DNA of 64,000 nt, taken from a virus. Position 1 is the first letter of the stretch; the number at the start of each line of letters is the position of its first letter. The stretch is from the IMG/VR virus record IMGVR_UViG_3300003323_000567, positions 1 to 64,000 of that record, one strand, 5' to 3'. The position numbers and the translations under genes are program-made. The notes under the pieces were generated by a model. That model made no database searches and was not told the origin of the DNA. It saw only the letters and a program-made list of their open reading frames with translations. Positions 60,459 to 60,684 of the stretch are shown here, piece after piece.

Positions 60459-60684
60459 AGATGCTGTTTTGTTGCTTTACGCATTCTAGCCATTAAACTA
60501 ACCCCCTGTAATACCTTCCTATTAGCTTTCAGTCCAGTTTGAAGGTAGTCTGTCTTCTTCTCCTGAAATCAGCTTAACCCAGTACAGACACATGAGGTAA
60601 GGAAGATATTGCAGGGGGCGGGGGGATTCGAACACCCCCATCTCGTCCGTGAAAAGGATTGCTAATGTTTGCAGTTCAGCATCT
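60459..60684 (-). tRNA. Array unit 3: circularly permuted tRNA-Glu(UUC)
   Basis: Closing stem AGATGCTG/CAGCATCT and box AACTGCAAACA. The 3' half (60658-60613: TCC, loop TTTTCAC, GGACG, T-arm with TTCGAAT, acceptor ending CCCCCT) precedes the 5' half (60507-60480: AGGGGGT, TA, D-arm GTTT/GAAT, G, CG). Joined, the anticodon stem is CGTCC/GGACG and the loop reads UUC. The T-loop region is 2 nt too long. Sequences flanking the acceptor strands pair further, so that 60601-60618 and 60502-60519 form one helix with 17 of 18 positions paired: the expected shape of a permuted precursor. Confidence 0.82.

Follow-up and report, generated by a model that had tools for sequence, protein, structure and literature searches.

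A permuted tRNA-Glu-like module in a putative Y-RNA-like array beside a Ro-like gene of viral DNA

YrlA, a bacterial Y RNA and the partner of the Ro60 ortholog Rsr, binds the Ro ortholog with its end stem and PNPase with its transfer RNA (tRNA)-like domain (PMC8394870), and Hughes et al. (2020) proposed this tRNA-like domain as a possible inhibitor of anticodon nucleases (PMC7790460). Among phages, a survey based on structures identified a protein of a mycobacteriophage that resembles human RO60, though from other phage clusters (PMC12363180). The Class I RNAs of Dictyostelium, whose mechanism is unknown, are in turn reported to be unique to Dictyostelia (PMC7919456). Here we analyzed a stretch of 64,000 nucleotides (nt) of viral DNA, positions 1 to 64,000 of the IMG/VR record IMGVR_UViG_3300003323_000567 (the window), for which an initial annotation had described a permuted tRNA-Glu at 60459-60684. 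We conclude that this permuted tRNA-Glu is probably the tRNA-like domain within a Y-RNA-like array that partners a phage Ro60-like protein with a DUF2828 region and a von Willebrand A (vWA) domain. That the units of the array are Y-like RNAs of a Ro protein appears likely from their sequences and gene neighborhood.

The permuted module and the units of the array

The limits given by the initial annotation coincide with one unit of the array, U4 (Table 1), which is closed by AGATGCTG and CAGCATCT. Its description of the module itself was borne out as well. On the minus strand the 3' half of a tRNA-Glu precedes the 5' half. Rotating U4 to place the 5' half before the 3' half yielded a tRNA call by ARAGORN for 39 rotations, of which 28 were called tRNA-Glu(ttc). 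Applied to unrotated U4 the program called no tRNA, and its scan of the unrotated window missed the module, too. A recount of the acceptor helix confirmed pairing between 60618-60601 (CCCCCTGCAATATCTTCC) and 60519-60502 (GGAAGGTATTACAGGGGG) at 17 of 18 positions, comprising 16 Watson-Crick pairs, one G-U pair and one mismatch, while none of 60 dinucleotide shuffles of U4 contained an 18-position helix with 17 pairs. The anticodon loop TTTTCAC is a normal glutamate UUC loop. Furthermore, the free fold of U4 (-73.9 kcal/mol, z -3.7) was equalled by none of 200 shuffles. It combines the end stem, the anticodon-loop hairpin UCC/GGA, the T arm, the acceptor/linker helix and the D arm. As modeled, the tRNA-like fold of U4 needs no ligation, and no bulge-helix-bulge is apparent where the halves meet in the predicted fold.

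U4 is one of eight tandem units on the minus strand, from 60894 to 59951, most of which lack a complete tRNA. Every unit opens with A(A)/G or A, followed by an arm of 7 nt, a single base and ACAGCAA, the last with small variations, and closes with the complement of this 5' arm, after which UG follows in all units but one (AA/G...C/UG layout). The resulting end stem of 7-8 base pairs (bp) is private to each unit, and UGNUAA forms the linker between adjacent units. By its sequence, each unit thus consists of a private end stem, the adjacent ACAGCAA and a module that copies either a piece of tRNA or helix 69 of 23S ribosomal RNA (rRNA). The end stem and ACAGCAA, not the modules, are the most conserved parts. 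Since a pattern scan of viral contigs also delivered many chance loci, only arrays with pairing arms were kept. For the pairing test itself, junctions were picked by the motif alone, which avoids circularity: arms pair at 6 or 7 of 7 positions in 72 of 97 consecutive junctions, compared to 6.7 on average and 18 at most in 1000 shuffles of the partners. When arrays were compared to phages by BLASTN, that of the window had no match, that of locus L056 matched ordinary tRNAs, and that of L063 matched only Leptolyngbya phage Lbo-JY46, which turned out to be informative.

The modules fall into several types. In minimum-energy folds, 23 of 86 small units have a 7-nt loop (5.5 in shuffles), with U at loop position 2 in 22 and a purine at position 6 in 21 of these 23. 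An anticodon-arm-type hairpin, some of which are T loops, occurs in 69 of 128 units compared to 11.7 in mononucleotide shuffles. Among the 26 loops with a pyrimidine at position 32, U33 and A37, position 36 is U or A in 24, a 36/37 combination that is known from real tRNAs. In addition, the L007 counterpart of the U8 hairpin reads UCAU-CUUGUAA-AUGA, so that its changes are paired. A second hairpin type, with D-loop-like GG loops such as AUUGGUA, occurs in small units of L054, L025, L148, L183, L192 and others, and 27 of the 86 small units have a GG motif of this kind. Modules of a further type follow a helix-69 pattern that was identified as 23S rRNA in E. coli and was absent from the three metagenome-assembled genomes searched. 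Those of L011 and L146 share 23 of 26 positions with the 23S rRNA of E. coli, and the resemblance is looser in U3 and L007.

Some contigs that carry arrays hold other structured RNAs as well: a Hatchet ribozyme above its gathering score (L076, 3304-3454), a RAGATH-1 hammerhead-like match (L009, 2497-2584; 49 bits vs. 56.3) and a group I intron (L032, 363-650, minus strand). Besides the array, the window encodes an unusually long tRNA-Val(AAC) of 96 nt (55541-55636, minus strand) and a tRNA-like sequence of 58 nt that has acceptor, D and T arms and lacks an anticodon arm (51961-52018, minus strand). The latter is conserved in two phages, where it closely precedes the start codon of a DNA-polymerase-like gene (in L007 at 9877-9934, plus strand).

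The Ro-like gene and its link to the units

The nearest large gene upstream of the array encodes a Ro-like protein, with two short open reading frames in between. A profile of its relatives detected such a protein in 17 of 19 array records. In the reverse direction, 54 viral loci were picked by the protein profile alone, and 48 of them have stringent units on the same strand, a few with the unit over the gene's own start codon as their sole one. The opposite strand and the reversed sequence were free of stringent units in all 54. Judged by these sequence data, the array and the Ro-like gene are linked to each other. Units also stand beside the Ro-like gene in cultivated phages, namely Leptolyngbya phage Lbo-JY46, Enterococcus phage EFDG1, Listeria phage List-36 and Campylobacter phage NCTC12673. 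Of these, EFDG1 additionally has an unannotated match to transfer-messenger RNA (L200, 2059-2409; 140.6 bits, gathering score 47), and List-36 has a ROOL RNA match slightly under the gathering score upstream of its Ro-like gene (L202, 1913-2464). The protein of the window is related to gp54 of mycobacteriophage Moostard (tblastn E 6e-10), which is annotated as Ro-like RNA binding protein. All homologues tested scored above the Pfam cut-off for DUF7788, and all except Lbo-JY46 did so for DUF2828.

The permuted units resemble YrlA. Those of L065, L056, L011, L054, L093, L009 and EFDG1 match the YrlA model (RF02553), some across the full model and EFDG1 best with 44.9 bits. Inside the window itself Rfam gave no YrlA match. 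Two traits of YrlA are nevertheless evident: an end stem formed by the 5' and 3' ends is present in the units, and the order T arm, closed acceptor, D arm is found in U4, U6 and at other loci.

Besides the tandem array, the window has a unit-like element that overlaps the start codon of its Ro-like gene. The unit motif sits on the start codon of 15 of 56 Ro-like genes, among others in L147, L151, L158, L169 and L193, near position 5001. A 3' arm accompanies 14 of these 15 motifs, while 300 synonymous recodings gave a mean of 6.5 and a maximum of 12, and the arm is perfect in 8 of 15 (mean 1.7 in recodings). We had first suspected a mere coding coincidence. The recoding controls argue otherwise, although conservation of the protein explains part of the pattern. 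Because of this contribution, self-regulation of the Ro-like gene is only suggestive.

Table 1. Units, substructures of U4 and the Ro-like gene in the window
Feature	Position	Strand	Description	Basis
Unit U2	60844..60894	-	End stem GGTGTCA/TGACACC; anticodon-arm hairpin, loop UUUUUAU (Lys UUU type)	Weak Rfam Dicty_Class_I match
Unit U3	60690..60837	-	Module resembling 23S rRNA helix 69 and the strand after helix 69	
Unit U4	60460..60683	-	End stem GATGCTG/CAGCATC, motif ACTGCAAA; permuted tRNA-Glu(UUC)-like module	
U4, anticodon-loop hairpin	60646..60658	-	UCC-UUUUCAC-GGA; predicted to form without ligation	Minimum-energy fold
U4, tRNA-Glu-like 3' half	60613..60658	-	Anticodon loop, T arm, acceptor 3' strand	ARAGORN on rotations
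U4, tRNA-Glu-like 5' half	60480..60507	-	Acceptor 5' strand, D arm	ARAGORN on rotations
U4, closed acceptor/linker hairpin	60502..60618	-	17/18 pairs	Pairing count and shuffles
Unit U5	60400..60454	-	Small unit, small hairpin; end stem GGGTGAC/GTCACCC	
Unit U6	60170..60394	-	Permuted tRNA-Leu(CAG)-like module	Leu(cag) called by ARAGORN after rotation
Unit U7	60074..60163	-	Anticodon-arm hairpin (loop CUGAAAA, Phe GAA type) and T arm adjoining the end stem	
Unit U8	60012..60067	-	Anticodon-arm hairpin only, UCCA-CUUGUAA-UGGA (Thr UGU type)	
Unit U9	59951..60005	-	Small unit, small hairpin	Rfam Dicty_Class_I_RNA, 39.7 bits (gathering 41.5), E 8.8e-6
Ro-like protein	61243..63039	-	598 amino acids; DUF2828 region and DUF7788 vWA domain; upstream of array, same strand	Pfam and homology
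Unit-like element over Ro-like start codon	62981..63040	-	GATGTTT-G-ACAGCAAA ... AGACATC-TG	Motif and arm pairing

Weighing the alternatives

The initial annotation had taken the module for a tRNA precursor, and a true permuted tRNA gene would indeed yield a transcript whose acceptor is cleaved by RNase P and RNase Z and whose anticodon-side ends are joined into a working tRNA-Glu. The 17 of 18 acceptor pairs, the intact anticodon loop and the calls of Glu(ttc) and Leu(cag) upon rotation fit to such a gene. Given the long linker of U4, processing of its acceptor is possible, and so is a joined tRNA from U4 or U6. However, this part of the annotation found no support, since the same scaffold holds anticodon hairpins, T-arm modules and a helix-69 mimic, most units of the same design lack a whole tRNA and several other permuted units have no consistent anticodon. 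Among the homologues, the acceptor hairpin of a permuted EFDG1 unit, GCCACC-ACT-GGTGGT, has a 3-nt loop and one in L022 is capped by the 4-nt loop TAGC. Loops of 3-4 nt seem too tight for tRNA end processing, and because some acceptor hairpins have them, the permuted modules would be closed tRNA mimics and not tRNA precursors. The matches to YrlA and the Ro-like neighbor gene oppose the precursor as well. Moreover, RtcB was found in none of the 12 array records searched and a T4-type RNA ligase in only one, which is not the record of the window, while the discriminator of the putative tRNA would be U73. Consequently, we consider a permuted tRNA gene unlikely.

If the units were instead a free decoy array, they would imitate anticodon arms, tRNA and helix 69 in soluble form and soak up ribonuclease toxins or modifying enzymes of the host, and the Ro-like protein would not be needed. 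The range of canonical anticodon arms, the helix-69 mimic and the nuclease inhibition proposed for the tRNA-like domain of YrlA all agree with this scenario, yet it explains neither the near-obligate linkage to the Ro-like gene nor why conservation is highest in the end stem and ACAGCAA, and we regard it as improbable. Minimal, nearly armless tRNAs that work in translation might be suggested by the acceptor-like 7-bp end stem, the anticodon arm and the length of 50-60 nt. However, CCA is absent, the end stems of the Lys-type units have no common sequence, the permuted units contain a second, separate acceptor, and helix-69 and D-loop-like modules exist, all of which renders this explanation very improbable. 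The same holds for a self-splicing or permuted intron-exon cassette that would circularize its insert. Although shared sequence flanks the halves and the 5' halves end near U, Rfam detected no ribozyme or intron family in the array, the position of the junction varies among units and the small units contain nothing to join. Self-cleaving cores of the hammerhead, twister and HDV types, group I permuted intron-exon structures, bulge-helix-bulge introns and integron attC sites were set aside likewise.

Several observations weigh against a Ro-partner array, too. All YrlA matches stay under the gathering score (44.9 vs. 69), and so do the scores for Dicty_Class_I_RNA (39.7 vs. 41.5). Because both gathering scores were tested and not reached, the array was not filed under RF02553 or RF01414. 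Pfam, hhalign and profile comparisons did not link the N-terminal or TROVE half of the protein to canonical Ro60, and alignments to Ro60 in PDB and profile comparisons are confined to the vWA domain. Furthermore, U4 and U6 retain good tRNA bodies with real anticodons, beyond what a pure scaffold would need, and the whole case for the array as partner of a Ro protein is one built from sequence. We nevertheless favor the Ro-partner array.

If the units are Ro-partner RNAs, the array would give a single transcript that is divided near the UGAUAA linkers, and the end stem with ACAGCAA would represent the protein-binding part. The exposed module might then dock the Ro-like protein on enzymes that handle tRNA or ribosomes, in the way YrlA engages PNPase, or it might compete with real tRNA for nucleases and modifying enzymes. 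Such a role as tether or decoy can only tentatively be assigned to the module. The unit over the start codon may allow the protein to limit its own synthesis.

This interpretation would provide a partner RNA and a candidate binding motif for phage proteins annotated as Ro-like, DUF2828 or hypothetical protein, comprising 220 cultivated-phage records. It would also portray Y-like RNAs as interchangeable mimics of tRNA and rRNA and thereby address the long-open question of what the modules of Y RNAs do. Since Y-like RNAs of this kind would be built from swappable mimics, the function of the module becomes directly testable in laboratory phages, anticodon by anticodon.

Comparison to known systems

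Like the genes for permuted tRNAs of algae and archaea, U4 has the 3' half ahead of the 5' half and gives a tRNA upon rotation. It differs from them in that the fold gives no hint of a bulge-helix-bulge, the acceptor loops of some relatives seem too short for processing and the phage scaffold carries non-tRNA modules as well. YrlA shares the closing end stem, the permuted tRNA-like domain and a gene beside a Ro-like gene, and it itself has the permuted order though it is no tRNA gene. In contrast to YrlA, the phage units employ ACAGCAA as motif on the protein side and occur in tandem arrays of up to 8, while their anticodon-arm and helix-69 modules are absent from the description of YrlA (PMC8394870). 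An array of varied anticodon arms would fit the nuclease inhibition proposed for YrlA without proving it.

On the protein side, the phage Ro-like proteins, i.e., gp54 of Moostard and the DUF2828 proteins of EFDG1, Listeria, Campylobacter and Felixounavirus phages, belong to the same DUF2828 plus DUF7788 family. Where units were found, the records of such proteins have no partner RNA annotated. In Moostard, a YrlA-like RNA adjoins the Ro-like gene, and no ACAGCAA unit was detected at the threshold used.

The small units finally lead to Dictyostelium. Matches to Dicty_Class_I_RNA (RF01414) were obtained for U9 (39.7 bits) and Lbo-JY46 (39.3 bits), and every match that was checked falls by its coordinates on a unit or on a Ro-like start codon. 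One might speculate that Ro-partner RNAs of the ACAGCAA type form an undescribed family which unites the phage arrays with the Class I RNAs. The Ro-like protein would then present a library of anticodon-arm, tRNA and helix-69 mimics that blocks anticodon nucleases and other enzymes directed at tRNA or ribosomes, and the Dictyostelium RNAs would be the Y RNAs of a DUF2828-type protein. We hold this extended idea to be doubtful. The phage units also offer a lead on the Class I RNAs. Neither an array nor a Ro-like partner is reported for them in PMC7919456. According to the same work, however, they have AA ahead of a 5' G, a short variable end stem with compensatory changes, a motif ending UUACAGCAA, CUG(U) after the stem and a length of about 60 nt. 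The AA-G start, the variable end stem, the UUACAGCAA motif, the CUG end and the length of about 60 nt are all present in the small units.
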